A DNA stretch of 42,849 bases from Candidatus Nitrotoga sp. BS (GTDB lineage: Bacteria; Pseudomonadota; Gammaproteobacteria; Burkholderiales; Gallionellaceae). Both the position numbers and the translations under genes were made by a program. Positions 350-20,048 of the stretch are shown here, piece after piece. The stretch's first letter is position 1; every line of letters starts with the position of its first letter. The DNA lies in contig NZ_CAKMLL010000088.1 of NCBI RefSeq assembly GCF_927797785.1, forward strand, positions 1-42,849. Reading direction: 5' to 3'. The notes under the pieces are model-generated. The model had not been told where the DNA came from and searched no databases. It worked only from the letters and a program-made list of their open reading frames with translations.

Positions 350-451
350 ATGTTTGAGAATGTGACTACTGGCCAAGTTCTTTTGATGTATGCATGTATT
401 TTTGGATTTATTTTTGGTATGGCTGCAATTTTATGTAAGAAGAACTCTTAA
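350..451 (+). CDS. 33-residue single-helix membrane microprotein
   Basis: An ATG frame of 33 codons follows a near-perfect Shine-Dalgarno sequence (aaaggaggagaag, seven or so bases before the start). The product has a short polar N-terminus, one hydrophobic helix (about residues 9-29) and a KKNS tail. This is the form of small oxidase subunits such as CcoQ or CydX, but I see no family signature. It lies 150 bases ahead of the diheme cytochrome gene, so a structural role in the respiratory complex is inferred from context. Coding status rests on the ribosome site and the hydrophobic composition. Confidence 0.6.
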   Translation: MFENVTTGQVLLMYACIFGFIFGMAAILCKKNS

Positions 452-603
452 AAAGGTTTAATGATACTGCGAGTGGTGGAAATATTGTTTTTGGATGCCT
501 TTCGAAAACATGGTACGTCTTTCACGTCGGTTGAAAGGCCAGCAACTAGAAAAGTTGTTAGGGGAAGATTAATTTGAAGAATTTCAAGAAATAAGGGGGG
601 GGA

Positions 604-1383
604 ATGCGCAAATCTACATCCATGTGGTCGTCATGGCTTACAATAATAGGCGCCATAGTACTTGTATCAGGAACTTCTGCCTCTGCAGAAACTGGAAAAA
701 TTAGTGCGAATCCTGCTAATGGTAAAGTCATCTTTACCGAAGGAAAAGGGGGTGTTCCTGCTTGCTTATCTTGCCATGGAGAAAATGCTTTAGGTATTGA
801 TGCCATGGGCTCGCCCCGTCTGGCCAATATTGGTTATGTTTATCTTGTTAAGCAACTTACTGATTTTGCTGCGGACAGACGTGTTCCTTCTGGTCTGGGA
901 GCGGTAATGAACGGATTTGCCAAGGAGTTGAGCGAGCAGGATCGCCGTGATGTGGCTGCGTATGTTGATAGCTTGCCCAGAAAATTTGAGCCATCTGACT
1001 TAAAGGCTCTTAAAGAAGAGGGGCAGCAGGTTGGTCAGACTTATTTGGGGAAGCTTCTGGCTCATAGCGGAGTAAAGGGTAAGGTGGCTTCTTGTTACTC
1101 ATGTCATGGATTTAATGGACGCGGTGCTGATCCTATGTTTCCGGCGATTGGCAATCAAAAGTATGTATATTTGGTTAATCAATTAAAAAGTTGGCGTGAT
1201 GACACAAGGAATAATGACCCAGTAGTTGGAGGGGTTCATATGATGCAAGCTGTGGCGAAAACGCTTACAGATGACGACATTTATAATGTTGCTGCATATT
1301 TGTCTTCTGCTCCGCCAGTTAATGTGCGGGACGGCCTTCTTATTGATAATCAAACGGTTTTGAAAGAAATATTAGTTCGATAG
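604..1383 (+). CDS. Periplasmic diheme cytochrome c (c4/c553-like)
   Basis: The 259-residue product starts with a Sec signal peptide (hydrophobic residues about 9-27, cleavage probably after ASA). It then has two tandem class I cytochrome c domains with CLSCH at 54-58 and CYSCH at 164-168. Methionines in the second half of each domain (near 102 and 205) are the likely sixth ligands. Two-domain proteins of this kind shuttle electrons in the periplasm to terminal oxidases or other complexes. The oxidase in this window has no CcoP (normally diheme), so this protein may fill that role; that is inference. The ATG is preceded by a run of eight G residues instead of an ordinary Shine-Dalgarno site. 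Confidence 0.85.
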   Translation: MRKSTSMWSSWLTIIGAIVLVSGTSASAETGKISANPANGKVIFTEGKGGVPACLSCHGENALGIDAMGSPRLANIGYVYLVKQLTDFAADRRVPSGLGAVMNGFAKELSEQDRRDVAAYVDSLPRKFEPSDLKALKEEGQQVGQTYLGKLLAHSGVKGKVASCYSCHGFNGRGADPMFPAIGNQKYVYLVNQLKSWRDDTRNNDPVVGGVHMMQAVAKTLTDDDIYNVAAYLSSAPPVNVRDGLLIDNQTVLKEILVR

Positions 1384-1505
1384 GTATTTTTAGCTATTAA
1401 ATTAGCTGCTGCTTGCGAAATCCCCGTGCGACGAGTTACATCGGACGCGGGGATTTTGTCTATTTTGAAAAATATTATATGTGGTCTCGGGGGGGGTTAT
1501 TCGGC

Positions 1506-2102
1506 ATGGCAATTAGCAATATGAAGCTTGGAGAAAAATTGCTATTTGGAGGGTTTGCGCTGATTGGTATTATGGCTTTTGTCAGTTGGTTGGTGCTAGA
1601 AGTTGTCAGGTCACGTTTGGATAAGCCGATGTTCCCAGTGCTTCAGTATGATTTTTCCGCACAGGGCTTGCGAGGGTCAGAGTTATTTCGTACAGCGGGA
1701 TGCACTATCTGTCACCGCGCAATGCGCAACGGTACAAATATGGGGCTGGTTCTCGACGGGATCGGTTCTAAGCGTACCCTTGAATACTTGAACAAATTTT
1801 TAACAGATCCAGAAGCAACTTACCATGGGACGACGATGGATCATGGTCCTTCTAAAGGAGCTGCTTTCGTAGCGAAATTGCCGCCAGAGGAATTGCAGGC
1901 GATTGCCGTGTTTCTCTCCGAGCTACGAGCCAATCCGGGGTCTAATGCGTCGCGATTTCCCCCAGTGGGCGGGGAATCCAATTTTATTGATGAGATGGTC
2001 AGGATGTGGGCGCCAGATAGCTGGAAATCAGAGTATAAGGATGTACGTGAGGAAGTAAAATTAAAAGCGAAAGAGAATCAGCATGACGCAGGAACAAAAT
2101 GA
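1506..2102 (+). CDS. Membrane-anchored monoheme cytochrome c
   Basis: I chose ATG 1506 over the in-frame ATG at 1413 because eight G residues (1489-1496) sit nine bases upstream. The 31 extra residues of the longer form also do not resemble a signal sequence. The 198-residue protein has one N-terminal helix (about 11-34), then a periplasmic class I cytochrome c domain with CTICH at 66-70. It resembles the cytochrome at 11153-11641 beyond the heme site: both have an LDG(I/M)GS motif followed by an aromatic-rich helix and a C-terminal helix. It probably carries electrons within the oxidase complex. The last 20 bases overlap the next gene. Confidence 0.75.
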   Translation: MAISNMKLGEKLLFGGFALIGIMAFVSWLVLEVVRSRLDKPMFPVLQYDFSAQGLRGSELFRTAGCTICHRAMRNGTNMGLVLDGIGSKRTLEYLNKFLTDPEATYHGTTMDHGPSKGAAFVAKLPPEELQAIAVFLSELRANPGSNASRFPPVGGESNFIDEMVRMWAPDSWKSEYKDVREEVKLKAKENQHDAGTK

Positions 2103-2595
2103 GCCCTGGGCTCAGGATAAAGAATATACCAAATATACATTGTGGTTTATCTATGCTTGCATCATTTACAGCATAATTGGTTTTTCATGGGGGGCATTGA
2201 TGGGTGGGGTTCCCACATTTAGACATTTTGTTAATAGCGGTATACCTGGTCACAGACTCGTTTTAGGGCATACGCATATTAATTTGCTAGGATGGGTGGA
2301 AATGGCTATTTTCGGCGCGGTATATTATCTTATTCCACGACTGGTGCGTCGCTCCATCTATAGTCTGCGTTTAGTAAAAATTCATTTCTGGATGCATAAT
2401 CTTGGTTTGCTGGGGGTCGTGGTTTTCTTTAGCTCAGCGGGGCTGGTTGGAATTTTTATCGATGACGATGCGGAATCGGTTGCATCAAGATTTATGTCAC
2501 TTGCAGGAATTTTCGGTAGTATCGTTTTATTAGCTAACATTATCTGGGGATATAACATATACCGTACTTGCAATGGATGGAACAGGCCTAAGTGA
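2083..2595 (+). CDS. Stand-alone HxH-domain protein related to heme-copper oxidase subunit I
   Basis: The 170-residue protein has four predicted membrane helices. Its central part (GHTHINLLGW, then YSLRLVKIHFW about 30 residues later) lines up with helices 10-11 of the CcoN-like protein at 7181 (AHAHLALLGF, then YSLTLGNLHFW). In full oxidases those histidines bind the two hemes. The copper-ligand histidines and the rest of the twelve-helix core are missing, so it cannot be a complete oxidase. Small proteins of this kind are known and often annotated as oxidase subunit I; their function is not settled. A heme-binding or assembly role is inferred. It overlaps the upstream cytochrome gene by 20 bases, which implies co-translation. 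A paralogue lies at 19298-19816. Confidence 0.7.
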   Translation: MTQEQNEPWAQDKEYTKYTLWFIYACIIYSIIGFSWGALMGGVPTFRHFVNSGIPGHRLVLGHTHINLLGWVEMAIFGAVYYLIPRLVRRSIYSLRLVKIHFWMHNLGLLGVVVFFSSAGLVGIFIDDDAESVASRFMSLAGIFGSIVLLANIIWGYNIYRTCNGWNRPK

Positions 2596-3131
2596 ATCTA
2601 AGAATATTAATACTGCTCGCTGTTTCTTGCCTTCTTGGTGGCTGTGGGGAATCATTTTCCTCATGGGGTATTGGAGGTGCGTCAATGGGAATGATGCAGA
2701 AAGGAATGGTTGCGCCTAGCTTGCCCACAAAAACATTGGCAGATGTCGGTGGAGATATGAGCAAAATGACGACATATCGTCAACCAGACGCGCGCATGTA
2801 CCAATACTCATTGGATAAAGCATTGGCGCTTGGCAAGCCTATCGTTCTGGAGTTTGCCACACCTGGTCATTGCACTGTGTGTGATGGGCAATTGCAAATT
2901 ATGAAGGCGTTATTGGAAAAATATCAAACCCAGGTACTTTTTTTGCATATGGATCAATACCAAAATCCGGAAGCATTCAAGGCATATCGCGTAATGGGTG
3001 ATCCATGGACTTTTTTTATAAATGACAAAGGCGTTGTTAGCGGCGTTCAACCTGGACGTATGTTGTATGGGGAAATGGAAGCGGGAATAACAAAGATTCT
3101 TAAAGAAGGAACAGAAAGTAGCGCAGGTTAA
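2592..3131 (+). CDS. Thioredoxin-fold lipoprotein
   Basis: The GTG start overlaps the stop codon of the preceding gene. The 179-residue product has a lipoprotein signal (hydrophobic 4-16, LGGC lipobox with Cys18). It also has a thioredoxin-like domain with a CTVC redox motif at 95-98 and a DPW segment at the usual cis-proline position. In other bacteria, periplasmic thioredoxin-like proteins such as TlpA keep copper-site or heme-site cysteines reduced during cytochrome oxidase assembly. The location among cytochrome genes fits a similar maturation role here, but the substrate is not shown by the sequence. A purely sensory or electron-transfer role is possible. Confidence 0.7.
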   Translation: MNLRILILLAVSCLLGGCGESFSSWGIGGASMGMMQKGMVAPSLPTKTLADVGGDMSKMTTYRQPDARMYQYSLDKALALGKPIVLEFATPGHCTVCDGQLQIMKALLEKYQTQVLFLHMDQYQNPEAFKAYRVMGDPWTFFINDKGVVSGVQPGRMLYGEMEAGITKILKEGTESSAG

Positions 3132-3137
3132 TCAGGT

Positions 3138-3587
3138 ATGAGCGATACACGTTTCAGTTTAGTCCAAGATCGCAAAGGCATGATGTGGGATTTGCTTCTG
3201 TATGTACCTACAGTGATCGCCTTATTGTCGATGGTAGCCAAATTTTGGTACGGCGGAGATGTCAGTTTGGCCTATTTATTTTCATTTTTAGCCAGTTTCT
3301 TTTTTATCGCTGGCGCCAACCGCATATTGAAAACTCGATTAATGTTATTACCTACCGCGCCCATTGCAATTGAAATTGCTGAGCAAGTAACTAGAGTAAT
3401 TATGCGCAACGGAGAGAATGTGGAGTTGGTGAAAGACATACGACTTTACGCGGATTACTCAGGTCGATCGTTTGGACTGGCAGGGCTTGATAAATTGGAC
3501 CAGCGTTTGCAATTCGTATTTCATAAAGGGCAGTTTTCAAGCATAAAAGATTACCAAGCAGTTCAGGAAAAGTATATAGCTAGTTAG
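3138..3587 (+). CDS. Two-helix membrane protein with a small C-terminal domain
   Basis: The frame begins six bases after the thioredoxin-like gene and encodes 149 residues. Two adjacent hydrophobic helices (about 20-37 and 43-63) are followed by a mixed alpha/beta region of about 85 residues rich in short hydrophobic strands, reminiscent of a membrane-tethered PH-like domain. I do not recognise the family. The last gene of this short run, it may belong to the same transcript as the cytochromes and the thioredoxin-like lipoprotein and act in their assembly; that is inferred from position only. Confidence 0.6.
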   Translation: MSDTRFSLVQDRKGMMWDLLLYVPTVIALLSMVAKFWYGGDVSLAYLFSFLASFFFIAGANRILKTRLMLLPTAPIAIEIAEQVTRVIMRNGENVELVKDIRLYADYSGRSFGLAGLDKLDQRLQFVFHKGQFSSIKDYQAVQEKYIAS

Positions 3588-4075
3588 CATCCATATTCCA
3601 AAATTCACTTGATCATAAAAATCTAGGTTAACCATAATGTTCAGATGCGCAATTCCGTCATTCGATGCGTAGGAAAAACATTTAAAACTTCTCATCGCTG
3701 ATCCAAGCTTCATATCGACTTTCATCGGAATGCGAAATTTTGCTCCTCTTCAGCCGCGTCGACTGTGCTTAGTGGCTAATTAGGTAAGAATTGATCCATA
3801 TATTTGATACCTTAATAAATGACAATGAGTTTTAAGGCGTCAACTAAACGAGTGATTCTTATTGCAAATAATTAATTCTGAAGTTATTTAGATGGTAGGA
3901 CATTCGTTGTGCTCAGCATGCCTCAAGCTAAATAAAGAAATTGTTATCATGATCAAAATATGAGAGTCTGCTCCAAAGACAAGGAAGCTTAAATTTCATT
4001 GCATCTACGTAGATATTTAAAATAAAAAATAAATAGCTGCAATATCTAGCAGTTAAAATCAATCTAAAGGAACTG
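3588..4075. other. A+T-rich intergenic region, no gene seen
   Basis: About 490 bases separate two plus-strand genes. Stops are frequent in all frames, and the only open frame on the minus strand (3537-3725) looks like chance, with no ribosome site or hydrophobicity pattern. A promoter for the gene at 4114 is expected here, but I cannot single one out. Confidence 0.4.
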
Positions 4076-4120
4076 ATGGAAAAAGCAAGTAAAATGCATG
4101 GGCAGAGTATGAGATGTTAA
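4076..4120 (+). CDS. Possible 14-codon upstream reading frame
   Basis: ATG 4076 follows a good Shine-Dalgarno sequence (aaagga, ending about five bases before it) and reads 14 codons to a TAA that overlaps the ATG at 4114 in another frame. The start at 4114 itself has only a weak site. The short frame could couple translation to the downstream membrane-protein gene. It might equally mark an indel that split a longer gene, or be chance. Confidence 0.3.
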   Translation: MEKASKMHGQSMRC

Positions 4121-4500
4121 CAGCAGGCACGGTGTGGGCTGCGTTACTAACCTATGCGTTAATGTTAGCAGCGTTTCAATATGCTAGGCATCGCATGTTT
4201 CATGTGTTGGCAATGACTTCCGTAATCTTGTTTGATCTGGGAATGCCTGTTTATCTTTATATTTTTAAGGACTGGTATCGCCGTTTGATTGTAGAGAGCG
4301 AAATAACCTCATTAATTGTATGGATACATTTAATGATGATTGTGATGATGTATGCGTTATATGTACTGCAAGTTAAAACTGCTCTGCGCTTGCTACGCAA
4401 TGATAACAGTGTACGCATCGATCATGGCGCTCAAGGTCGGGCTACGTTGCTGGTACGCGCACTGGTCATTTTTACAGGCGCCATACTTGTAGAGACCTAA
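4114..4500 (+). CDS. Four-helix membrane protein, DUF420-like
   Basis: The 128-residue product has four hydrophobic segments (about 6-22, 29-50, 63-86, 106-125). It has histidines at or near helix ends (RHRMFH, WIH, DHG) and an arginine-rich loop before the last helix. The pattern resembles the DUF420 family, some members of which help heme-copper oxidase assembly or activity (for example CtaM in Firmicutes). The resemblance is by eye and moderate. It stands alone between A+T-rich DNA and a convergent small gene. A link to the oxidase locus is inferred from position and topology. Confidence 0.5.
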   Translation: MLTAGTVWAALLTYALMLAAFQYARHRMFHVLAMTSVILFDLGMPVYLYIFKDWYRRLIVESEITSLIVWIHLMMIVMMYALYVLQVKTALRLLRNDNSVRIDHGAQGRATLLVRALVIFTGAILVET

Positions 4501-4524
4501 TAAATATGGCTGTTTGTGAAGCCG

Positions 4525-4734
4525 CTATTTACTGCCCTTGCGGTGTCGAATTACATCCCAAACCATAAATCCAATAGCCACTACACCGATGAGACAGGTG
4601 GCTAGAATAAGCAAATACTCAGTTTCCTTGCTAACCAAGCCACCAATTAGCATGTGTACAGCATAGCTCATGATGAACAGAGAGCTAAGAGCCACTATAA
4701 AATAAATTAAGATTTCTTGAATGAGCTTATTCAT
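4525..4734 (-). CDS. Small two-helix membrane protein
   Basis: The 69-residue product has two hydrophobic helices (about 7-30 and 38-60) and a basic tail (IRHRKGSK), which puts the C-terminus in the cytoplasm. I see no recognisable motif. The gene converges on the DUF420-like gene with a 24-base gap and lies downstream of the GT39-like gene on the same strand, 127 bases away. The function is unknown. Confidence 0.5.
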   Translation of the reverse strand: MNKLIQEILIYFIVALSSLFIMSYAVHMLIGGLVSKETEYLLILATCLIGVVAIGFMVWDVIRHRKGSK

Positions 4735-4861
4735 TACGTTTTAAAGTATATTTATTACCAATTACGGCATATATTAGGATTAATCAGGCTAACCACTAAC
4801 ATCCAATATGGAAAGTTGGTCATGCTAATATGACTGAAGATATACGCAAATCTCATATAGC

Positions 4862-6328
4862 TTATTGATTGGACTTCAGGTTGGCTGGCTTGTTGACATT
4901 TTTTATATGCAATAATACCCCGCTGGGCTGTAATGCGATAGTTTCAACAATCTCTCCACCAAGCAGAGATAGGTTCTTTGCGAGCGCTGTATTGCTGGCT
5001 TGATGCGGATTGAATAATATGTGGGTAATACTGTGTAACAAGTCAAGTTGAGCCTGCGGATCTTGTGCGGCGGGAGGTAAGGGTAAGGTATCGCATTTGC
5101 ATGCGATCATGGTACGGCTTGGCCATTGGCTGGCTACTCGCAAAAGATTATGATTTTTTCCGCTTTCGTCTTCTTCATTGGCTTTGCGGATATTTTCAGC
5201 CTTTTCAACAAGAAAGTGAATTAACTGATCCTCCTCAGGCAGAAATCCAGATTGTCGAATTTCGTAGTGACTCCTATCTGCCTGCATAAATACAGTGGAA
5301 AGAATGATAATAAATAGCATCATCAATCCGCGATGATGAACAAACCCTTTGTCTGTGCGTACATGATTCGAATGTAATAATAAAGGCGTTCCAAAATACA
5401 AAATAAGACTTAACGCAATGATGCCCCACGCCAAATCACTGGTTGTAACTCCCAGCGTCAAACCAATCAGTAAGGTGCGGCCAGTAAAATCTGACCATAA
5501 GTTGCGGAATTGTTTGGTGACGATGATTACAAGTACTGCAAGAATGACCCATCCAACTGTCCACCTGACAATAGACATTTCACCTCCTAAAGATGAGCCG
5601 AATATGCTAATTGCTAGGCTCTCAATTGGATTTTTGAACCATTCTACGTAATTCCATCCGTTTAACATGAGTATGGTAAAGATAGAAATAAAGCTTACAC
5701 CAATAAAAAAATATTTCTGCTGCTTCATATCCAGCGGCTCTTTGTACCATGACCAAAGCAGCGCTAATGGATATGCTAGGCCAATGGGATGCAAGCTCAC
5801 GCTAAACGCGCTGACAAGTAACTGGGAAAAATACCAGCCACCACCAGAGCGAGGGTTTGCTCTATATTCCGTATTTAGCCATGCACCAAATGCAAATGCG
5901 ATTACCAAGTAGATACCGGAAGAAAGAGTATCAATTTGTTCAAGTATCAGCGGAGATACAGCCAGTAAGCCACTGGCAACTAATGCACTTTCAGCATTGA
6001 CATTGCGACGGCTCCATAAGTAAAGCATCCAAATGGCAAAGGCAAATAAAAGTGTAGTGAAAACCTTGGCCGCAAAAACCTTACCTGTCCAAAGAAATGC
6101 AACAGGTAAAAACAACAATGCACGCAAATCAGGCGCACCAAAAGTAACAACTGAAGCGGCTACCTGATCAGCTATTGACCATGCTAATAAAAGAGATTTA
6201 GCGGAGCCTTCATCCAAGTTGTAAAGATCGGGCCGCGACAATAAAAGGATGGCTGCTCCCCATAATGACAAGGAAAGATACCCCCAGTAACGAAGAGGAA
6301 TACGGTCAAAAAAAGTATTAATGTTCAT
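4862..6328 (-). CDS. Polytopic membrane protein, GT39/ArnT-like glycosyltransferase
   Basis: The protein has an N-terminal helix, a short acidic periplasmic loop with NLDEG (the place where GT39/GT-C enzymes keep their DE-type motif), about nine further helices, and a soluble C-terminal part of about 130 residues. This layout matches lipid-linked sugar transferases of the dolichol-phosphate-mannosyltransferase superfamily. Donor and acceptor cannot be told. The in-frame ATG at 6328 (MNINTFFDRIP) seems more likely than the one at 6358, but neither has a good ribosome site. It runs opposite to the respiratory genes, so it may be unrelated to them. Confidence 0.6.
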   Translation of the reverse strand: MNINTFFDRIPLRYWGYLSLSLWGAAILLLSRPDLYNLDEGSAKSLLLAWSIADQVAASVVTFGAPDLRALLFLPVAFLWTGKVFAAKVFTTLLFAFAIWMLYLWSRRNVNAESALVASGLLAVSPLILEQIDTLSSGIYLVIAFAFGAWLNTEYRANPRSGGGWYFSQLLVSAFSVSLHPIGLAYPLALLWSWYKEPLDMKQQKYFFIGVSFISIFTILMLNGWNYVEWFKNPIESLAISIFGSSLGGEMSIVRWTVGWVILAVLVIIVTKQFRNLWSDFTGRTLLIGLTLGVTTSDLAWGIIALSLILYFGTPLLLHSNHVRTDKGFVHHRGLMMLFIIILSTVFMQADRSHYEIRQSGFLPEEDQLIHFLVEKAENIRKANEEDESGKNHNLLRVASQWPSRTMIACKCDTLPLPPAAQDPQAQLDLLHSITHILFNPHQASNTALAKNLSLLGGEIVETIALQPSGVLLHIKNVNKPANLKSNQ

Positions 6329-6364
6329 TATCAATATAATTGTTTGGTTTAAGTACACTATGCC

Positions 6365-6394
6365 TTGACAAGGTTAAGTGTAGGGTTTTATTAT
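6365..6394 (+). promoter_or_regulatory. Sigma-70-type promoter for the oxidase gene cluster
   Basis: TTGACA at 6365-6370 and TATTAT at 6389-6394 are separated by 18 bases. The pair lies in the divergent gap between the GT39-like gene and the 93-residue protein gene and points toward the catalytic oxidase genes. Transcription would begin near 6401. Confidence 0.6.
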
Positions 6395-6432
6395 ATCACT
6401 GCATTTTTATAACACTGAATTTTAGTGGTCGC

Positions 6433-6447
6433 TTGTCTCGGAGACAA
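6433..6447. promoter_or_regulatory. Perfect palindrome, candidate operator
   Basis: TTGTCTC-G-GAGACAA is a perfect seven-base inverted repeat about 30 bases after the expected transcription start. A dimeric regulator could bind here, or it could form a short hairpin in the leader. I know of no regulator with this site. Confidence 0.4.
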
Positions 6448-6557
6448 TCATTGCCCAAAGGAATTCAGTTGCAGAGTTGACGGATCTGAAACATCTGGAT
6501 TCCGATAAAAACAGTAACAATCTAAATTGTTTAGATAAAACCAGGGGGAAATGCAAA

Positions 6558-6839
6558 ATGCAAAAAAAGTCAATACCAGCTAGTTCCTTTTGGATAATTA
6601 TAGTTGCGGGGTTCGTAACGGGAATGGGTAATGGTAGTGTGTTCGGGGCGGCTCTTATGTGTTGGATGGGACGTGCAGGATTTGAAGATTGGGGTGGGGT
6701 GGGTGCTGGTTCATATATACCTTCAACATTTAATGGTTTTATGAGTACTTGTATGTTTGTGTTTGGCTTTGCGTTTACTTTAATGTTGGCGCTCGCTTTA
6801 AAGAGGCACGATACGATTGAGAATGGAGTTCGTGCTTAG
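6558..6839 (+). CDS. 93-residue two-helix membrane protein
   Basis: ATG 6558 is chosen because AGGGGGAA lies seven bases upstream; the longer frame from a TTG at 6477 has no site. The product has two hydrophobic, glycine-rich helices (about 11-33 and 54-78) joined by a loop with DWGGVGAGSY. I recognise no family. It is the first gene after the promoter at 6365 and precedes the catalytic oxidase genes on the same strand, so it is probably a small subunit or assembly factor of the oxidase. Confidence 0.6.
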   Translation: MQKKSIPASSFWIIIVAGFVTGMGNGSVFGAALMCWMGRAGFEDWGGVGAGSYIPSTFNGFMSTCMFVFGFAFTLMLALALKRHDTIENGVRA

Positions 6840-6894
6840 GCGCGACATACCTGTGTAAAAACTTTAAAATATGAAGCCTTAAATAGGGGGGGAT

Positions 6895-7098
6895 ATGCTA
6901 ATAATATTGGCAGGGACGTTTTGCATGCTTTTGGCGTTTTCTAGTATGTGGTTATCGTGGTATGTATTAATGCCGCACAAGCGTATACATTTGGCTGATG
7001 GTACTGATGCATTGGGTGAGGTGGTTGGTGGTACGGTGGGAGATATAGTTTCAGAGGAGCTGTCTTCGATCACACATCATAAAACGTCAAAAAAATAA
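6895..7098 (+). CDS. 67-residue single-helix membrane protein
   Basis: The ATG follows seven G residues (6886-6892). The product has one N-terminal helix (about 2-25), then a hydrophilic tail with a run of glycine and acidic residues and a basic end. Small subunits of oxidases often look like this, but there is no signature. It sits between the 93-residue protein and the CcoN-like subunit on the same strand. Confidence 0.55.
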   Translation: MLIILAGTFCMLLAFSSMWLSWYVLMPHKRIHLADGTDALGEVVGGTVGDIVSEELSSITHHKTSKK

Positions 7099-7180
7099 CA
7101 CCTAATAAAAATTAATAGTGGGACTAACGCTGATTACGACAGCCAATATGTCTGTTTAGGGCGAAATGAGGAGATGCAGC

Positions 7181-11641: not shown

Positions 11642-12108
11642 GTAAATTTCCGCCCTCGACCGGAGTCCGATTTTTCAGCGGTGTTGTGGCGGTTATTATG
11701 GGTTGCGCTTTGAATTACCTCGGCGATCGTATTCTTGGAGTAAAAATTGAGTTATTTCGAGGCATTCTTGACTTCAACCGACTGTGGGTCATAGATATGT
11801 TTGTGCTACCTTTTTTTGTAGGTGTGCTGGTCGCAGTTATTTTTGGACTTGGCGGTAAATGGCTGTGTTACTTTCCTCCGTTAATAGTTAAATCTATTAG
11901 TTACTTAGAAATTATATATTTAACTGGAGTTCCGGAAGGTGCATCGTTAATGCCATTTGGCATGTGGGCTTTGTTTGTGACTGTAGTTATGACTGCGGCA
12001 GGTTTCGGTGGGGTCATGGGAGAAATCATCATAAAAAAAACTTATGGAAGAGATCCGAGCGATCTTTTATATAAGCAGAGTACCGACAATAGTGAACGTG
12101 ACATTTAG
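11638..12108 (+). CDS. Four-helix membrane protein of unknown family
   Basis: The 156-residue protein has four hydrophobic segments (about 11-30, 48-72, 84-97, 105-130) and a hydrophilic, charged C-terminus. I see no heme-ligand pattern. Its start overlaps the end of the cytochrome gene and its stop is immediately followed by the next ATG, so it is translated as part of the same unit. It is likely to be a membrane subunit of the complex. Confidence 0.6.
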   Translation: MSKFPPSTGVRFFSGVVAVIMGCALNYLGDRILGVKIELFRGILDFNRLWVIDMFVLPFFVGVLVAVIFGLGGKWLCYFPPLIVKSISYLEIIYLTGVPEGASLMPFGMWALFVTVVMTAAGFGGVMGEIIIKKTYGRDPSDLLYKQSTDNSERDI

Positions 12109-13173: not shown

Positions 13174-13424
13174 GAGTGCTTAAGATGTTATGGCATCTCG
13201 GAATGGTTCTTGGTCTCTCATTGCTCATGGTAAAAATGAGCTATGCAGTTGATAGCTATCGGTTTCTTCACGTTCATATTGATACTCTTTGGTATATTTT
13301 TTTATTCCTGCTGGCTATTCTTTTTGTTCCATATATTTTGATGGCAGTATTGACATGGCACTACGCGGAAAAAAAAGATAATCTGAAAGAACAGCAGGAA
13401 ATATCAGCCGAGACTGACAAATGA
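13170..13424 (+). CDS. 84-residue two-helix membrane protein
   Basis: A GTG start overlaps the SUMF1-fold gene by four bases. The product has a hydrophobic N-terminus (about 5-26, possibly a cleaved signal ending in SYA) and a second helix (about 38-62) with a charged C-terminal tail. It has two histidines in FLHVHID between them. I do not recognise it. It is tightly coupled to its neighbours. Confidence 0.6.
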   Translation: MRVLKMLWHLGMVLGLSLLMVKMSYAVDSYRFLHVHIDTLWYIFLFLLAILFVPYILMAVLTWHYAEKKDNLKEQQEISAETDK

Positions 13425-13810
13425 TGTTGAGTTCGAGGGGTGGCTCCGTTCCATATAGACTGGCATGCTGGCTGATTACAGCGGTGCTGCTTTTGCTTTG
13501 TGCGATACCAATTGCGCGAGCTGATGATAACGGCCAGAAGGGCAATAGCGCTAAGGTGATGAAAGCGTTTGAACAGCAAGCCAGTAAAAATAATATAGAT
13601 AGGCCTTTAACCATACAAAAAAAACATTTGACTATGTTTTTATTGGGCGTGCCATTGTTGATCTTGCTTCTAATTACTGGAGCGCTGGGCATCGCTATGG
13701 GTATATATGGTAAACAAGTATTTATGCTGCATATGATTTCTGCTGGACTTACCATCACACTAGCTTTTGTACACGCTATTGTGGGAGTTATCTGGTTTTA
13801 TCCTTTCTAA
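13421..13810 (+). CDS. Membrane protein with signal sequence and two His-containing helices
   Basis: The 129-residue product has an N-terminal signal (about 14-33, ending ARA), a polar stretch, and two helices (about 71-93 and 97-125). The second carries MLHMISAG and FVHAIVG, a spacing reminiscent of heme-b-binding helices in b-type cytochromes. Heme binding is not proven. It is the last gene of the tightly packed run that begins at 10515. Confidence 0.55.
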   Translation: MMLSSRGGSVPYRLACWLITAVLLLLCAIPIARADDNGQKGNSAKVMKAFEQQASKNNIDRPLTIQKKHLTMFLLGVPLLILLLITGALGIAMGIYGKQVFMLHMISAGLTITLAFVHAIVGVIWFYPF

Positions 13811-14486
13811 TTCAAAGCACTCTATGCCTCGTACTATAGTTTGTTTTAAACGCTGCACATATGCATTTGAATTATGTCTGTCTCTCTATTTACTATCTGT
13901 CTAGTGGGTTCTCAGATTAATTTGTAGTGATCGTAGATTGCATTCTCTCTCGGCTTAACAGAAGAAAGGCGTTTTCTGCAGAGTATTATTTAGGTGCAGT
14001 GCAAGTGTTGACATTATGTTCTATGTATCAGATTAATCTTAATACCAGTCGTGTTTGGCGCATAAATGTATATTTGTTTAAATTCGTGATGATATAGATA
14101 CGCCGCCGCTGCTTCGCGTACTCAGTGATGTGGGTGGCAAGTGGGTTTCGAAATCGATTAGAGCCTGTTGATACAACAAGTTGCATGCTGTACCTGAGCT
14201 TGGAGAGCTTGTTCAGTTGCGCTTGCCACTAGACATCAATGTTGTTACCAAGGGTTTCAAATACTATTGTAAAAGATTTAGGCAAGCGAATGCGGCTTCT
14301 GTGACTTCCACGGCATTCGAATCCGCATACTTGTCCCACTGTGAAAATCTAAAAATATAACAGGTTGTATGAGGTTCACTGTAAGTTACGCACATACCAC
14401 CATGTTTAATTTTAAATTAAAGTTTTATATTCAGCCCTGTTAACCGTATTTGTTTGAAATATTTTGCAGCATACCAAGGTTGATTC
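13811..14486. other. Intergenic region with a possible decayed reading frame
   Basis: About 680 bases hold no intact gene. On the plus strand the frame from about 14170 to the stop at 14358-14360 is open for some 60 codons but has no start codon or ribosome site, and its translation matches no family I know. It may be a gene remnant. No clear terminator follows the run ending at 13810. Confidence 0.35.
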
Positions 14487-17102
14487 ATGCTGGTGAAAGA
14501 GCCACAATTAATGATCTCAAAGCGTAGCTTTTGGCCGCTGGCACTGCTGTATGGAGTATTCGGCCTGACTAGCGTGGCGTACGAGGTGTTGTGGGTGCGC
14601 ATGCTTTCTTTGCAATTCGGTGTGAGTATTTTTGCGGTGGTGCTAACCGTCGCCGCATTTATGGGTGGATTGGGAGCGGGAAGTTTGTTCGCAGTACGTC
14701 GGGCTTCCCATATCAAAAGCCCATTATTGTTGCTTGCTGCATTGGAAGGTGGTATTGCTGTGTACGCCTTACTCTTGCCGCTGATTCTGCAAATCACCTC
14801 GGCTGGAATGGAACACGCGGCGTCGCAACTTTCGTTATTTCAATGGTATGGCCTTATTGCGAGTGTAGCTTTGTGTTTTTTGCTGTTCCCAGCTTTCATT
14901 ATGGGGGCAGGGTTTCCATTAGTTTTAGCATCTTTGGGAAATAGGCATGAGCGATTGGGGAAGATTTACGGTTTAAATACCCTTGGTGCTGCTTGTGGAG
15001 CATTGTTGCCGCTGTGGTTGCTGCCAGCCATCGGTTGGGTCTGGGCGGTCAGAGTGGTTGCCGCGATTGGCTGTGTGGGAGCTGTTGTGCTGTTGCTGCT
15101 TTCATCACGGTATACCGCAGCACAGGTGACCGAGAAATGCGTTAAGAAAAGCCGGCCACGTTTAGCTTTCTTGTTCGCCTATGCCGGAATTGGAGCGGCA
15201 AGTCTAATCTTGCAAATAGCTTGGACACGCTTGTTCGGCATGGTGATGCTGCGCACTGAGTATGTGTTGTCAGTGATTTTGGCGTCATTTCTGCTGGGTA
15301 TCGGTATAGGCAGTTTGATCGCGCCGCGCCAGCACAGGCAAGTGTGGTTTGTAATCTTGCCCATTGCTGCTGGAGGATTCACCATATTAAGCTTATGGTT
15401 GTTGCCTGCGCTTTCGGCATGGGTGGAGCGAGCTGAGTTTACTTCTTTATTTGAAGCATTGAGAATGCAAGGGTTGATACTCACGCTGGTAACTTTGCCA
15501 GTTACACTGGCACTTGGAGCTTGGTTGCCTTTGTTAAACAGCCGCTCGAATGGTGGTGGGGTATGGTTGTATGGGGCAAATTCACTGGGTGCCGCTCTCG
15601 GAGCGGTCGTTGCAGGAGTGGTGCTCATTCCGTTTTGGGGCAGTGCTGCTACAGTAGCGATGGCCGCTTCTGTGTTGTTGATCCTGGGTTTAACCTGGGC
15701 GCAGTCGCGTGTCGCATGGCTTGTCGTACCGTTATTTTTAATTGCAGTGTGGCCAGTTGTAAAGTTACCGCCAGTTAATATGCTATTGCCGCAGGCGCAA
15801 GCGGGAAGCAGGGATTTATATTTTTACGAAGACGCTATTTCGATGACGCATGTCGTAGAGCAACCAGACGGGCAGCGCGTATTGCTGACCGACTTGCAGA
15901 GAATGGATGCTTCAACTGATCCTACGGCAGTGTTTGTGCAATCCAATCAAGCGCGACTGCCATTGCTGTTGCATGAACAGCCTGGCTCGGTTCTATTTCT
16001 TGGATTGGGTACTGGAATTTCCGTGGCTGGCTCCCTAGCGTTTCCTAATTTGGATCGAAGTGCAGTTGAATTGTCACAGGGCGCGATTAATTCCGCAGCG
16101 ACTTGGTTTGCCCCTTTAAATCGCAACGCGCTGAGCCAAACAAAAGTTGAACGTGATGACGTACGGCATTTTCTAAGTGCGAGTCGGGATCAATACGACG
16201 TCATAATCGGCGACGTGTTTCATCCGGATTTGGCAGGTTCAAGTTCTTTATTATCAGTGCAGCAATTTCAGCGTGTACGTAATCGCCTAAGTGAGAATGG
16301 AATATTTGTTCAGTGGTTAGCACTCAATCAATTCGACAATAAATCTTTAAACGTAATTTTTAACAGCTTTCGGCTGGCTTTTCCAGATGCGCAAATATTT
16401 CTCGATGGGATGCATTTAGCCTTGGTCGGCCCACGACAGAAATTTATGGGCGCGCAGGGGCTGTTGCACAATTTGCAGCGTTTGTCCTTGGAGCAACAGG
16501 ACGAAGTAACTGCAGGCGAAGGGGGGTGGACTTGGCTAGGTCGCTATTGGGGCCCTTTGCCGGGCAGCCGGGAGCAGGTGCAAGACGAGTGGTCGCCAGT
16601 GATTGAGTTTCATCTGCCGCGCGCGCGCTACGCTGGTAATTTAGATGTGGCAAAGTTATTACAAGCCTTGCTGAAAACCAGGCCGAATATGGAAGCCGCT
16701 GCAAAATTGCTGGGAATTCGTGACAACGATAAAGATGCTTTCGAACGCGCTTACGTAGGAAGCGAGCTTATGACGCGAAGCTGGCTTGCAGCTGCGCGTG
16801 GAGCAACGCAACAGGCTAATCAGCTGACGCATTTGGCTTATAAGGCGAATGCAAAAGATCGCTGGATTGCTTATGCGTTGGCTGATAATATGTTTTCATC
16901 ATTAGGCCAAGCGCGCGAGCATGGTTTAAGCGAGAAAGAGGCGTTGCAGAAAATTTTACGTCTTAATCCATATCATGTAGAAGCGGTGCGCGCATTGTGG
17001 CGAATTGAGCGAAATGCCGGTGCTGCACGCGCGGAATCGACCCGTGCGCACTTGCTGGAGCTGAGTCCGCTTGATTTTGAAGCAAATATGGCGAGGAATT
17101 AA
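14487..17102 (+). CDS. Fused membrane transporter-like and spermidine-synthase-like protein
   Basis: The 871-residue protein has about twelve to fourteen helices in its first 430 residues, like the fused MFS/spermidine-synthase family. A Rossmann methyltransferase-like domain follows, with FLGLGTGISVAG near residue 505 as the nucleotide-binding loop, DVRHF, and DVIIGDVFHPDL. The C-terminal 220 residues look helical, perhaps TPR-like. Related proteins resemble aminopropyltransferases but their substrate is mostly unknown, so polyamine synthesis should not be assumed. It is richer in G+C than the small respiratory genes before it. The downstream CcoG-like gene begins seven bases after its stop. 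Confidence 0.75.
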   Translation: MLVKEPQLMISKRSFWPLALLYGVFGLTSVAYEVLWVRMLSLQFGVSIFAVVLTVAAFMGGLGAGSLFAVRRASHIKSPLLLLAALEGGIAVYALLLPLILQITSAGMEHAASQLSLFQWYGLIASVALCFLLFPAFIMGAGFPLVLASLGNRHERLGKIYGLNTLGAACGALLPLWLLPAIGWVWAVRVVAAIGCVGAVVLLLLSSRYTAAQVTEKCVKKSRPRLAFLFAYAGIGAASLILQIAWTRLFGMVMLRTEYVLSVILASFLLGIGIGSLIAPRQHRQVWFVILPIAAGGFTILSLWLLPALSAWVERAEFTSLFEALRMQGLILTLVTLPVTLALGAWLPLLNSRSNGGGVWLYGANSLGAALGAVVAGVVLIPFWGSAATVAMAASVLLILGLTWAQSRVAWLVVPLFLIAVWPVVKLPPVNMLLPQAQAGSRDLYFYEDAISMTHVVEQPDGQRVLLTDLQRMDASTDPTAVFVQSNQARLPLLLHEQPGSVLFLGLGTGISVAGSLAFPNLDRSAVELSQGAINSAATWFAPLNRNALSQTKVERDDVRHFLSASRDQYDVIIGDVFHPDLAGSSSLLSVQQFQRVRNRLSENGIFVQWLALNQFDNKSLNVIFNSFRLAFPDAQIFLDGMHLALVGPRQKFMGAQGLLHNLQRLSLEQQDEVTAGEGGWTWLGRYWGPLPGSREQVQDEWSPVIEFHLPRARYAGNLDVAKLLQALLKTRPNMEAAAKLLGIRDNDKDAFERAYVGSELMTRSWLAAARGATQQANQLTHLAYKANAKDRWIAYALADNMFSSLGQAREHGLSEKEALQKILRLNPYHVEAVRALWRIERNAGAARAESTRAHLLELSPLDFEANMARN

Positions 17103-17109
17103 CTTCATT

Positions 17110-18450
17110 ATGGCCAGCGGTGTCAAGTATAAATCCATTTCCAGCATCCCAGTCAAGGTAATCGGCACGGTCGTAGGTTCGAACCCAGTCCGCTCTCAAT
17201 TCCGTTGGAAGCGGCGGTTGCTGCAGATGCTGATACTGATCCTGGTTGTATTGATTCCGGCTAGCGGCCTATTCCGTATCGATCCGGGGGCTGCTGCTTT
17301 CGTTGTGCTCGATCGGCAGATATGGTTGGCTGATTTTTCCTTGGTGACTGGGGCATGGCTATTTTTGGCGAGTAGTTTGGTGTTGCTGTACTCGACCGCT
17401 GGTACTGTTTTTTGCGGTTGGCTTTGTCCTCAAAATACTTTGGCCGAATGGGCCAACAATCTTACTCGCAAATTATTAGGTAAGCATGCCGAGGTAAGCT
17501 TAACCGGGGAAGCGCCGCGTGTGGCGGGTGCAAAGAATAAGATCGTGAATTGGATGTTGCTCGGGGTTGCTTTTTTGGGGGCGGCTATGTTTTTTGCGCT
17601 AATTCCGTTATTTTATTTCTATCCGCCAAGTGTGGTGTGGTCTTTCGTAATACTGGAAGAGAATACCAAGTTGGCGGGATCACTGCATTGGATTTACTCG
17701 GTATGTGTTGTGATCGTTTTAATAGACATTGCTGTCATAAGACATTTTTGGTGCCGTTACGCTTGCATTTACAGGGTTTGGATGCATTCGTTTAAAACCA
17801 AGCAGACTTTGCATATAGCATATGATGCCAGTCGAAGTGATGAATGTGCCAAGTGTAATTATTGTGTCACTTCTTGTTTTATCGATCTGGATCCGCGCAA
17901 AACTGATATTTACGACAGTTGTATTAATTGTGGTGACTGTGTTGATGCTTGCAATCGATTGCATCACAAACAAGGAGTCCCTGGGCTATTGCGTTTTGAT
18001 ATGCTTGAGCGCACGAGTAACAGTGTAAATAGATTGCGTGGTGTCGCAATTTCTCTGATTGCTCGACTGGGCTGGACGACCCCTTTCGTGGTATTGGGTG
18101 CTGTGATGTTTATTTGGGGATTATGGTCATATCAACCTTACCATGTTGCAGTGGGCAATGCGGATGTACAGCAAGGCCACACAATTCAAGAGTATCGTAT
18201 TGCGCTTTCTAATAAACTGTATCACTCTGCGGAGCTGCACGTGCGTGTGTTAGGTTTGCCGCCGGGCAGTTACCAGCTTAGTGCTGAGGACATTATATTA
18301 CCGCCGGTCGGGCGAGAGTCACTCATGCTGTCTATCGTGCAGGATTTGCCACGAGGCTTATATTCTGTGGTGGTGGAGGTTTCTGCAGGTGATACCTGGA
18401 TAGGGCGATTCCCTGTTCAACATTTTTCTGAACAAAGGAGAAAACTATGA
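17110..18450 (+). CDS. ccoG: CcoG/FixG-type polyferredoxin, variant
   Basis: CcoG proteins are membrane iron-sulfur proteins that reduce copper during cbb3 oxidase assembly. The frame shows helices around 37-55, 78-98, 145-170 and 190-210 and an FCGWLCPQN motif. Two cluster-binding motifs follow: CAKCNYCVTSC and CINCGDCVDAC. A further helix and a C-terminal immunoglobulin-like domain of about 100 residues complete it. The usual CP after the first motif is CF here, and the usual CDxVMxK region reads CNRLHHKQG. ATG 17110 is chosen because the longer frame starts with TTG inside the preceding gene. It overlaps the next gene by four bases. Confidence 0.85.
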   Translation: MASGVKYKSISSIPVKVIGTVVGSNPVRSQFRWKRRLLQMLILILVVLIPASGLFRIDPGAAAFVVLDRQIWLADFSLVTGAWLFLASSLVLLYSTAGTVFCGWLCPQNTLAEWANNLTRKLLGKHAEVSLTGEAPRVAGAKNKIVNWMLLGVAFLGAAMFFALIPLFYFYPPSVVWSFVILEENTKLAGSLHWIYSVCVVIVLIDIAVIRHFWCRYACIYRVWMHSFKTKQTLHIAYDASRSDECAKCNYCVTSCFIDLDPRKTDIYDSCINCGDCVDACNRLHHKQGVPGLLRFDMLERTSNSVNRLRGVAISLIARLGWTTPFVVLGAVMFIWGLWSYQPYHVAVGNADVQQGHTIQEYRIALSNKLYHSAELHVRVLGLPPGSYQLSAEDIILPPVGRESLMLSIVQDLPRGLYSVVVEVSAGDTWIGRFPVQHFSEQRRKL

Positions 18451-18875
18451 TCACCAGCGATATTAGTGAAAAAGCTCAAGATTTATCGAAAGTAGATGCG
18501 CCGCGCTGGGGCGAGATGCCGGATGATCATTTTGGCTATGCTTCTAATGAAGAACGTATGGCTAAACGAGGGCTAGAAGACTGGGAGCTGGTAGAAACCA
18601 TTCCTGAGTCGCAAAAAAATATACCTTATTGGTTTATAGGGGTGACAGTTGCAGTGTTACTGGTTGCGGTGGGTTTGAGTTTCCCTTTTTGGGGTCTTCG
18701 TCCGGGTGATGAGCGTCCTTGGGTGGACTGGGGATTCATCATCGCTATATTTTATGTTGCTGCCGGAAGTGCTTTTGTTCGCTTCATGGTAAATTTATAT
18801 GGATCGTCGATTGGTGGAACGCTGGATTCAGATAAAAATAATAAGGACCAATCCCATGACCTCAATGCAAAATAA
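18447..18875 (+). CDS. Two-helix membrane protein, paralogue of the 9607 product
   Basis: The 142-residue protein has a polar N-terminus of 60 residues, a helix (about 61-81) ending in PFWGLRP, an eight-residue link, PWVDWGF and a second helix (about 96-113). The protein at 9607 has the same two helices and flanking motifs but a loop of about 105 residues between them. ATGA overlap with ccoG and a clean AAAGGAGAA ribosome site show co-expression. The function is unknown; a role in oxidase assembly with CcoG is inferred. Confidence 0.65.
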   Translation: MITSDISEKAQDLSKVDAPRWGEMPDDHFGYASNEERMAKRGLEDWELVETIPESQKNIPYWFIGVTVAVLLVAVGLSFPFWGLRPGDERPWVDWGFIIAIFYVAAGSAFVRFMVNLYGSSIGGTLDSDKNNKDQSHDLNAK

Positions 18876-19284
18876 TAATATGTATATATCGATTAACCGA
18901 TTGCGCAGAGGAAATGTAAAATATTTCAAGTTATTTTTTTTGCTGTTGTTAGCAGCATGCGGTGGAGATCGAATAGCTGATACGCAACCGCAAAAATGGC
19001 AGGGTGCGGAGGTGCGAGTTGAATCTAGGCCCAGCCCGCCACAGCCTGGAAAAAACGAGTTTTTGATAATAGTGACTGGTGAGCGTGGGCCGATCCATGA
19101 CATTATGGTTTCAGTACGCACCGACGACCAAGATCAATGGGTACAGGCAATACAAGATGGGGATATAGGCGTTTACCGCCGGGCGGCAACAGTTGCTCCA
19201 GGCACCAGATCTGTGTTACAGGTGCAGGTAAAACGTAACGGCGCTGAAGGGGTTTTGCGCTTTCCGTTGAAATTATCCATTTAG
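18856..19284 (+). CDS. FixH/CcoH-like lipoprotein
   Basis: ATG 18856 is chosen because AAGGA lies eight bases upstream; a later in-frame ATG at 18880 is also possible. The 142-residue product has a basic N-terminus, a hydrophobic stretch and a lipobox (LAAC), then a beta-rich domain of about 110 residues (EVRVESRPSPPQPGKN, VSVRTDD, GVYRRAATV). It resembles the periplasmic FixH/YtkA fold. FixH/CcoH usually follows CcoG and helps assemble cbb3 oxidase, which fits this position. Ordinary FixH is anchored by a helix, so the lipid anchor is a variation. Confidence 0.6.
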   Translation: MTSMQNNNMYISINRLRRGNVKYFKLFFLLLLAACGGDRIADTQPQKWQGAEVRVESRPSPPQPGKNEFLIIVTGERGPIHDIMVSVRTDDQDQWVQAIQDGDIGVYRRAATVAPGTRSVLQVQVKRNGAEGVLRFPLKLSI

Positions 19285-19297
19285 AAATAGATAGGTA

Positions 19298-19816
19298 TTA
19301 ATAATTCTGGTCGTTGCTTTTAAGTGTGAGTACGACATTAGCAAGATAGATGCAAAAACCTGTCGCCATGATCATCCCTGAGCTGGCTACAATGGGTCCA
19401 TAAAAGCGGTGCACATCTGCCATGCCTTGAAGGTCATTGTCTAGCAATAAATTTCCTTCCAAGATGCCAAATGCCACTTGCGTAAAATAAAAATAAAATA
19501 CCCCAATTGTTGTCCACCAAAACGAATGGTTTATCAGGCGTAATGAGTAAACTGCCTTACCGCTAATAATTGGTAGCAGATAATACATAGTTCCCATTGC
19601 CAATATCACTAGTCCTCCGATTAAGTTTATGTGCGCATGTGCCAGGGGATCTATCATGTGTCCAGGGCCACCGTAAGGGCTGCCGATAGAGTCCAGCCAA
19701 GCACGAATGGACGGAATTACTTGCAACAGGCCGTGCATTGCGCCGAAAAAAAATGAAATTGTGGAAATCAACAAAAACTTAATTAAGTGTGTAAATTCAG
19801 TGTTATTTAAACGCAT
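19298..19816 (-). CDS. Second stand-alone HxH-domain protein related to oxidase subunit I
   Basis: The 172-residue, four-helix protein has LAHAHINLIGG and, about 30 residues on, YSLRLINHSFWW. This is the same motif pair as the protein at 2083 and the same as helices 10-11 of the CcoN-like subunit. The copper-ligand histidines are absent. It lies on the opposite strand to the rest of the locus, convergent with the FixH-like gene (13-base gap). It may bind heme or be an evolutionary relic retained for another role. No strong ribosome site precedes the start. Confidence 0.65.
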   Translation of the reverse strand: MRLNNTEFTHLIKFLLISTISFFFGAMHGLLQVIPSIRAWLDSIGSPYGGPGHMIDPLAHAHINLIGGLVILAMGTMYYLLPIISGKAVYSLRLINHSFWWTTIGVFYFYFTQVAFGILEGNLLLDNDLQGMADVHRFYGPIVASSGMIMATGFCIYLANVVLTLKSNDQNY

Positions 19817-19841
19817 GGGAAGTATGGGTGTGATGCTTAAA

Positions 19842-19880
19842 TAACGAAAGCACGGTCGTAATATGACCGTGCTTTCGTTA
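19842..19880. terminator. Perfect 16-base hairpin
   Basis: TAACGAAAGCACGGTC is repeated in inverted form after a seven-base loop. On the minus strand it lies between the 36-residue microprotein gene and the HxH-domain gene and is followed by a weak T-rich stretch. It may end or attenuate the microprotein transcript, or protect an mRNA end. Confidence 0.45.
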
Positions 19881-19937
19881 ATAACAGGATAACGATATTA
19901 TCGTTTTGAGTTTTGTAATAAGAGGTCGCGCAAATAT

Positions 19938-20048
19938 TTACTTGTTATTTTTTTCTGCCTCTTTAAGTCGTTCAATACCTAAACTAGACAACGTTGTGGC
20001 GATAATAATGCCAGTGCCGAAGATAATTATGGGAACCAATACTTCCAT
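19938..20048 (-). CDS. 36-residue single-helix membrane microprotein
   Basis: The ATG at 20048 follows AAGGAGTAAC, a strong ribosome site. The product has one helix (about 3-20) and a charged amphipathic tail (GIERLKEAEKNNK). It is upstream of the second HxH-domain gene on the same strand. Size and topology match small oxidase subunits; nothing more specific can be said. Confidence 0.6.
   Translation of the reverse strand: MEVLVPIIIFGTGIIIATTLSSLGIERLKEAEKNNK

Follow-up and report, generated by a model that had tools for sequence, protein, structure and literature searches.

Judged from its sequence, a large gene block in the left half (positions 604-19816) of a 42,849-nucleotide contig of Candidatus Nitrotoga sp. 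BS (NZ_CAKMLL010000088.1; "the window" hereafter means this whole stretch) quite probably encodes the terminal oxidase of the organism, a divergent C-family (cbb3-like) oxygen reductase with a rebuilt electron entry, in which the dihaem subunit CcoP has been taken apart. In the source genome (3.10 Mb, 99.2% complete), the oxidase family PF00115 is represented by one full-length protein, the CcoN of this block, and by two short ones encoded at 2083-2595 and 19298-19816; cytochrome bd subunit I (CydA) was not found there. The nxrA product, a 1169-residue protein on contig C104, matches nitrite oxidoreductase subunit A (chain B of 7b04) over its full length (E 3.9e-234). No other terminal oxidase was found in this nitrite oxidiser by these searches, which did not extend to alternative oxidases.

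The catalytic subunit and its clade

The first-pass annotation of the window had recognised a CcoN-like and a CcoO-like gene, and both identifications hold: the product of 7166-8590 matches PF00115 with E 3.8e-77, and that of 8626-9588 matches PF02433 (FixO) with E 3.6e-18. The CcoN, with its haem, CuB and tyrosine positions kept, is the catalytic subunit of a divergent clade; it is about 30% identical to ordinary CcoN and scores 225 bits against the TIGR00780 equivalog, whose cut-off is 583. Full-length members of the clade are 68-99% identical to it, those in nine loci titled Candidatus Nitrotoga 94-99%, and the ratio of nonsynonymous to synonymous substitution rates (dN/dS) of its gene against two Nitrotoga is 0.01-0.02. 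A CcoN match at E <= 1e-20 was obtained in 167 of 274 genomes of the same class; 21 of the 274, the source genome included, carry a full CcoN of this clade (77-100% identity), G033 has it in two pieces, G035 has a 60% variant, and the next best match in the class is at 33%. Among 398 genomes of the phylum, 38 from another class have the full protein at 68-79% and three more have fragments, mostly within one family. This second class would be the Zetaproteobacteria, as the accessible part of the literature on that class suggests (PMC7029218).

The first-pass annotation had also proposed to place the CcoN in a C-family tree, where it falls outside ordinary cbb3 enzymes: the canonical group is supported at 100/100, and the clade of the window CcoN at 97/99 and 97/97 in two trees, the first of which included 19 of the 21 requested clade loci plus the window and only four of 12 second-class sequences. 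The C family including this clade is separated from an outgroup resembling nitric oxide reductase (NOR) with support of 100/100. Another divergent group within C-family subunit I, supported at 100/99 and about 31-34% identical to this CcoN, was noticed in L189, L190, L192 and L218; the first three of these loci are without the usual N-O-P-G pattern.

The ligand positions were compared between 88 clade proteins (87 of 100 clade loci plus the window, the 60% variant L053 being left out) and 17 canonical CcoN; here, as in the profile comparisons and conservation alignments below, sequences that contained X or fell outside a length window were excluded. H70, H351, H349, H211, H261, H262 and Y255 are common to both groups at >95%. 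We take the histidines to be the ligands of haem b, haem b3 and CuB. Y255 aligns with Y251 of 3mk7, the cross-link tyrosine of helix VII, and the four NOR-like outgroup proteins have no tyrosine six residues ahead of the histidine pair; a His-Tyr cross-link spanning two helices is described in the available portion of PMC8780969. The haem and CuB histidines, the cross-link tyrosine and the grouping apart from NOR together mark the protein as a predicted C-family oxygen reductase.

Gene order, co-occurrence and the apparent fate of CcoP

Gene order was compared in the best 80 of 189 relatives, all of at least 80% identity (more distant carriers lie outside this set), and in a second set of 20 loci that partly overlaps with it (L035 and L123 look like one contig); in the counts for loci "with room", those whose contig ends too early were excluded. 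The arrangement of about 18 genes around ccoN is largely conserved across Gallionellaceae, Ferrovum, uncultured gammaproteobacteria and the second class, this being the case in the 80 related loci and in 19 of the 20 of the second set, where the twentieth is the 60% variant. By title, the 80 loci comprise 9 Nitrotoga, 3 Sideroxydans, 9 Gallionella, Gallionellaceae or Gallionellales, 7 Ferrovum or Ferrovaceae, and 52 less specific entries. In the second class, 11 of 14 loci have the same order up to the end of the stretch, and the other three lack one module beside ccoN on stretches that are long enough for it: the genes from 10515 onward were not found there in L168 and L175, nor the 604-3587 genes in L170. 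The second commonest pattern, seen in 8 of the 80 related loci, has the genes 604-1383 and 1413-2102 inverted. In L052 (1-20000), L102 and L104 the block is rearranged in modules, with the 6477 protein, CcoN, CcoO and the haem-less protein described below remaining together.

The suggestion of the first-pass annotation that the neighbours should accompany this CcoN across genomes was borne out nearly one-to-one in the 274 class genomes. The haem-less protein encoded at 9607-10272 occurs in 23 of them, namely the 21 with a full CcoN plus G191 and G076; orthologues of the SUMF1-fold protein (12109-13173; E <= 6.3e-168, next best 2.2e-64) occur in the same 23, and those of a one-third CcoN (2083-2595; E <= 1.2e-85) in 24, G033 being added, with a CcoN as the next best match at 1.9e-21. 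Outside those 24 genomes none of the three was found in the class at these thresholds. The association of full CcoN with the haem-less protein has a Fisher p of 1.8e-29, in a table that counts G033 and G035 as without CcoN; the missing CcoN of G191 and G076 is most simply an assembly gap, since the haem-less gene lies near a contig start. Weaker matches resembling the one-third CcoN were seen in G035 (6.1e-19) and in short frames of G060, G099 and G264 (3.2e-19 to 1.4e-14, one at a contig end), and in G021 and G169 the one-third CcoN is on another contig than ccoN. The kept order and the co-occurrence rule out a chance gene neighbourhood; we regard the system as genuine, ancient and tightly knit. 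A plasmid-borne system was rejected, as a plasmid collection gave no match at E 1e-80.

The first-pass annotation had reported neither a CcoP nor the ccoNOQP order. The order is indeed absent from the block, and so is a haem-bearing CcoP; however, the gene directly after ccoO in the gene orders printed, 9607-10272, encodes an apparent relative of the CcoP N terminus, with no haem motif, in which a FixP_N-like helix is followed by a periplasmic domain and a second helix. It is present in 71 of 71 related loci with room. FixP_N (PF14715) is matched by 13 of 18 alignment members of this family (best 7.5e-5), the background of weak matches being one of 18 CcoS-like members at 0.065 and two of 11 members of the 18447 type at 0.11. 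A FixP_N scan covered 50 genomes: 24 carriers of the same class, 17 second-class carriers drawn from those with the 38 full and three fragmentary copies, G035, and eight controls. At the 9607 place, the domain scored above the gathering threshold in seven of the 41 system genomes and below it in 18 more (in G336 on a contig apart from ccoN). Canonical CcoP (E <= 1e-12) was found in 12 of the 41, each time beside an ordinary ccoN, and in none of the other 29, and all eight controls, which have ordinary cbb3 only, contain canonical CcoP frames. In the source genome FixP_N gave no match and no canonical CcoP was found. These results rule out an ordinary cbb3 enzyme whose CcoP is encoded elsewhere in the genome, an outcome that the first-pass annotation had named as one that would speak against a distinct oxidase.

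Three cytochromes c accompany the core. The product of 604-1383 is a soluble dihaem class I cytochrome c, Cyc1-type by its position, with two CXXCH motifs and PF00034 matched in two stretches (E 8.7e-21); it is likely an electron shuttle and may correspond to Cyc1 of iron oxidisers. Its best NCBIfam match is ccoP (TIGR00782, E 3.4e-12), far under the cut-off, and its orthologue is present in 60 of the 80 related loci (46 of 52 with room). The products of 1413-2102 (start codon uncertain; PF00034 E 4.3e-7; 46 of 54 related loci with room) and 11153-11641 (E 3.4e-5, with an invariant M116; 65 of 65) are membrane-anchored monohaem cytochromes c with one CXXCH each, and they are paralogues (hhalign probability 99.2). 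Against the cytochrome part of CcoP, the 1413 protein reaches an hhalign probability of 93.8 and the 604 protein 97.4, whereas the 11153 cytochrome is closer to CcoO (91.2) than to CcoP (81.8). The CcoO-like protein itself (73 of 73 related loci with room) is a monohaem cytochrome c whose FixO match covers residues 178-269 only, and about 130 additional residues precede its haem domain.

The 60% variant (G035, locus L053) encodes, beside its CcoN, a CcoO of 173 residues, a 115-residue frame that consists of FixP_N only and scores above the gathering threshold, two monohaem cytochromes, a thioredoxin-like protein and a one-third CcoN; a canonical CcoP lies elsewhere in that genome. We read this cluster as a smaller version of the same CcoP split, and it may be a sister type of the system. 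The shorter cluster occupies about 5670-14600 of the reverse complement of L053, where two further dihaem cytochromes were observed. The two-helix protein of 18447-18875 was also tried as a second relative of the CcoP N terminus, and was set aside: the sole basis is its profile match to the 9607 protein over 55 columns (hhalign 92.3).

Other proteins of the block

The first-pass annotation had counted about fifteen further genes, co-directional or overlapping, around the core. Indeed, about 20 open reading frames (ORFs) besides ccoN and ccoO lie at 604-19816, all on the forward strand except 4862-6358 and 19298-19816, and many abut or overlap by four bases (2592/2595, 11153/11156, 11638/11641, 12108/12109, 13170/13173, 13421/13424, 18447/18450). 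Of 23 block genes compared with up to three other Nitrotoga loci, 21 were comparable, no gene pair being obtained for 1413-2102 and 18799-19284; the small ORFs are regarded as real genes because dN/dS is 0.01-0.28 where synonymous divergence is unsaturated. The right half of the window holds division and wall genes, with MraW- and MraZ-like ORFs and a CysZ-like ORF by Pfam and others that we take to be ftsZ-, ftsA- and lpxC-like.

The contrast drawn in the first-pass annotation with canonical loci that hold ccoGHIS was overstated, since CcoG-like and CcoS-like genes are both in the block. The 92-residue CcoS-like maturation protein (10878-11156) is present in 67 of 67 related loci with room, and FixS is matched by 17 of 18 members of its alignment (best 1.7e-4). 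The CcoG-like iron-sulfur assembly protein (17071-18450; 56 of the 80 related loci) matches TIGR02745 with E 3.6e-31, under the cut-off, and canonical CcoG with an hhalign probability of 99.8. At the place of CcoH lies a lipoprotein gene (18799-19284; 25 of the 80), whose product had no Pfam match and no hhalign match to canonical CcoH above probability 40. A thioredoxin-like lipoprotein with a CxxC motif (2592-3131; PF13192 E 1.5e-5, barely above the cut-off; C94 and C97 conserved) is a probable assembly factor.

CcoN has 12 helices, and the 170-residue product of 2083-2595 (hN1; PF00115 E 1.9e-14, profile positions 303-406) corresponds to a single four-helix module of it, one third of the protein. 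Its AlphaFold model has a mean per-residue confidence (pLDDT) of 87.9, and the six best PDB hits are all cbb3 CcoN, with template-modelling scores of 0.75-0.78 by query. His63 and His65 align with the His-x-His of CcoN that binds haem b3 and haem b; they are invariant, as are His101 and His105, the latter two in 57 sequences. The protein likely binds haem, and it may serve as a subunit or as a haem-insertion factor. The one-third CcoN and the thioredoxin-like protein are each present in 38 of 55 related loci with room. A second one-third CcoN (hN2; 19298-19816, reverse strand; PF00115 E 6.2e-10) keeps the His-x-His and matches hN1 with an hhalign probability of 98.5.

The SUMF1-fold protein of the first-pass annotation is confirmed as a membrane-anchored product of 12109-13173 (PF03781 E 3.5e-56; 58 of 61 related loci with room). 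In 84 sequences, C31 and C343 are the sole cysteines with a conservation of at least 95%, with no conserved cysteine pair at what we take to be the place of the catalytic pair of the formylglycine-generating enzyme, and a formylglycine-generating function is therefore unlikely. The membrane protein of 13421-13810 (58 of 61) has a strictly conserved His104 and His118, 14 residues apart in one predicted helix (17 of 17 sequences), a spacing that we assume to resemble that of the haem-binding helices of cytochrome b; it is a possible b-haem protein.

The remaining genes encode mostly membrane proteins. Present in nearly all related loci with room are a small two-helix protein (6477-6839; 80 of 80, 72 of 72 with room), whose true start probably lies inside the annotated frame, its relatives being shorter; a two-helix protein (10515-10835; 68 of 69); a protein of about four helices with no Pfam family at E 0.1 (11638-12108; 57 of 61); a small membrane protein (13170-13424; 58 of 61); and a many-helix protein with a spermidine-synthase-like domain (14487-17102; PF01564 E 3.4e-6; 57 of 60). 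The last belongs to the conserved block; its profile match to CcoG (99.8) is probably an artefact of ORF extraction and was not used. A one-helix protein of 67 residues (6895-7098) was found in 67 of the 80 related loci, and a protein with two helices by hydropathy (3138-3587) in 40 of 57 with room. The reverse-strand gene 4862-6358 (weak PMT_2 match, E 0.016; 37 of 67 with room) is less tightly linked: it lies within the block in Nitrotoga, and many relatives have it upstream of the block. The gene 4114-4500 is of narrow spread, being found in 8 of the 80 (8 of 64 with room), namely in seven Nitrotoga plus a single close relative.

Electron path, competing explanations and related systems

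In the proposed mechanism, CcoN with haem b, haem b3, CuB and the cross-linked tyrosine would reduce O2, an activity predicted from its ligands, and CcoO would hand electrons to it via one haem c. The N-terminal membrane segment of CcoP would survive as the haem-less 9607-10272 protein, and electron transfer would fall to separate cytochromes, the membrane-anchored monohaem products of 1413-2102 and 11153-11641, fed by the soluble dihaem product of 604-1383, itself possibly the haem part of CcoP in detached form. In Nitrotoga the electrons would come from nitrite oxidoreductase; iron oxidisers would presumably draw them from a cytochrome of the outer membrane, for example Cyc2. The CcoG-like, CcoS-like and thioredoxin-like proteins would assemble the oxidase; their co-occurrence makes the one-third CcoN proteins, the SUMF1-fold protein and the remaining conserved membrane proteins probable further subunits or dedicated assembly partners. 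Since it is common to nitrite oxidisers and to iron-oxidiser genera, the system is not tied to one donor.

Several observations weigh against this reading. The window's own 9607 and 10878 proteins gave no FixP_N or FixS match even at E 10, the matches coming from their orthologues; the 9607 protein resembles whole canonical CcoP weakly (hhalign probability 59), and its profile found no solved CcoP and no meaningful hit among solved structures. The successor of CcoP among the three cytochromes is ambiguous, because the 604 protein resembles CcoP and the 11153 protein is nearer to CcoO, and part of the likeness is that of cytochromes c in general. Differences fixed between the clade and canonical CcoN include Y317 to Ala321, E323 to Gln327 and Y237 to His241 (3mk7 numbering first); because the first two replace canonical residues of helix IX, proton uptake should not be assumed to follow the known route. 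The membership of each gene in a complex is putative, and the block comes in separable modules. Of the first-pass annotation's distinct multi-subunit oxidase, the distinct clade with its own conserved genes stands; the single complex and its specialisation for an electron donor are proposals. In addition, no biochemistry on this oxidase was found in the literature, and the available part of the Mariprofundus PV-1 genome paper gives a ccoNOP set (PMC3179512), which may be of either type.

The modular behaviour of the block would suit an ordinary two-subunit CcoNO oxidase, the other genes being separate redox or assembly systems merely co-regulated with it: the 604/1413 inversion in eight loci, the one-third CcoN lying apart in G021 and G169, and the gaps of L168, L175 and L170 can all be read in this way, as can the median identity of CcoN in the related loci, which at 84% is far above the 48-65% of the other conserved genes (4114 and 4862 left out). 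We nevertheless regard this explanation as unlikely in view of the co-occurrence across two classes, the tight gene overlaps, and the constant presence of the FixP_N-like gene next after ccoO. Far less credible still is an assignment of the locus to a nitric oxide reductase or to some other haem-copper enzyme that does not reduce oxygen. With the NOR-like outgroup the clade does branch first in the C family (84/60 for the other groups together, with long branches), and some canonical polar residues of helix IX are lost, but the cross-link tyrosine is kept, the C family including the clade stands apart from NOR at 100/100, and no other candidate oxygen reductase was found in this nitrite oxidiser by the searches for haem-copper and bd oxidases.

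A specialisation for Fe(II), with the Nitrotoga copy as a leftover or side system, appears very unlikely, although iron oxidation is known, according to the accessible parts of PMC10734462 and PMC4725956, from the groups to which 19 of the 80 carriers belong by title (Gallionella and kin, Sideroxydans or Ferrovum), and a cyc1 homologue beside a cbb3 cluster of Sideroxydans ES-1 rises after Fe(II) in the excerpt at hand. Nine Nitrotoga carry the system, which is here the only oxidase found and is under strong purifying selection; moreover, in the available text on ES-1 the two cbb3 types respond in opposite ways, one increasing with Fe(II)-citrate and the other with thiosulfate, and the present oxidase may be either of them. 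A bolder version of the divergent cbb3-like oxidase, to which we attach little probability, is a supercomplex with transmembrane b-haem modules (the one-third CcoN and the 13421 protein) that would link O2 reduction by nitrite or Fe2+ to uphill electron flow towards quinone; if true, it would explain why carriers of genera with known metabolism live on high-potential donors.

Parts of this picture were known. According to the accessible portions of the literature, two cbb3 types occur in Gallionellaceae, Sideroxydans ES-1 and Zetaproteobacteria (PMC10734462, PMC8788666, PMC7029218), and their subunit composition is said to be different (PMC8788666). These are the types called "proximal" and "distal", and the present clade very probably represents one of them, the bacterial groups being the same; the accessible text does not list the present subunits. 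Either label may apply, since the outgroup rooting described above puts this clade first with 84/60 support and long branches. The two labels reportedly go back to Ducluzeau et al. 2008. A 2013 paper, as far as available, describes a 20-gene cluster common to Sideroxydans ES-1 and Mariprofundus PV-1, with 14 of the genes in Leptospirillum (PMC3770913). The cluster shares with our block the size of about 20 genes, the conserved order, some haem proteins among mostly hypothetical ones, and the groups of organisms; in contrast, its function is given there as unknown, with no link to an oxidase. It is probably this block, matched by description and not gene by gene, in which case our reading offers a function for it.

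The cbb3 of Ferrovum JA12 was described with subunits I and II only, and co-localised cytochromes were proposed to replace subunit III (PMC4725956); the available part of this account does not mention the haem-less CcoP relative, the CcoS-like gene, the one-third CcoN or the shared block. For Nitrotoga fabula, a high-affinity cbb3 oxidase was predicted, its subunits not being described in the accessible text (PMC6050957), and two Zetaproteobacteria have aa3 instead of cbb3 by the part at hand of PMC5513912. The Cyc1 homologue Slit_2657, said to be associated with the cbb3 cluster, ranks above the 95th percentile of protein abundance in ES-1 in the portion available of PMC12016527. In the open-licence literature, as far as its text was accessible, no description was found of the haem-less CcoP relative, the CcoS-like gene or the one-third CcoN.

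Energy is scarce for organisms that oxidise nitrite or Fe(II), and the accessible literature calls their terminal oxidase simply cbb3. Our data indicate that the enzyme of Nitrotoga, Gallionellaceae, Ferrovum and the second class comes with its own gene set, in which CcoP is apparently dissolved into a haem-less anchor and separate cytochromes, and with marker genes, such as that for the 9607 product, that occur only with this system in the 274 class genomes. Compared with canonical cbb3 (ccoNOQP, 3mk7), the locus differs in the identity of about 30%, the absence of a dihaem CcoP, the CcoO longer by about 130 residues, about 14 extra conserved genes and the altered helix IX; it shares the CcoN fold, the metal ligands, the tyrosine, the monohaem CcoO domain and the CcoG- and CcoS-like factors. 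Overall, what is new are the haem-less CcoP relative, the CcoS-like gene and the measured co-occurrence, and the catalytic core is that of cbb3.

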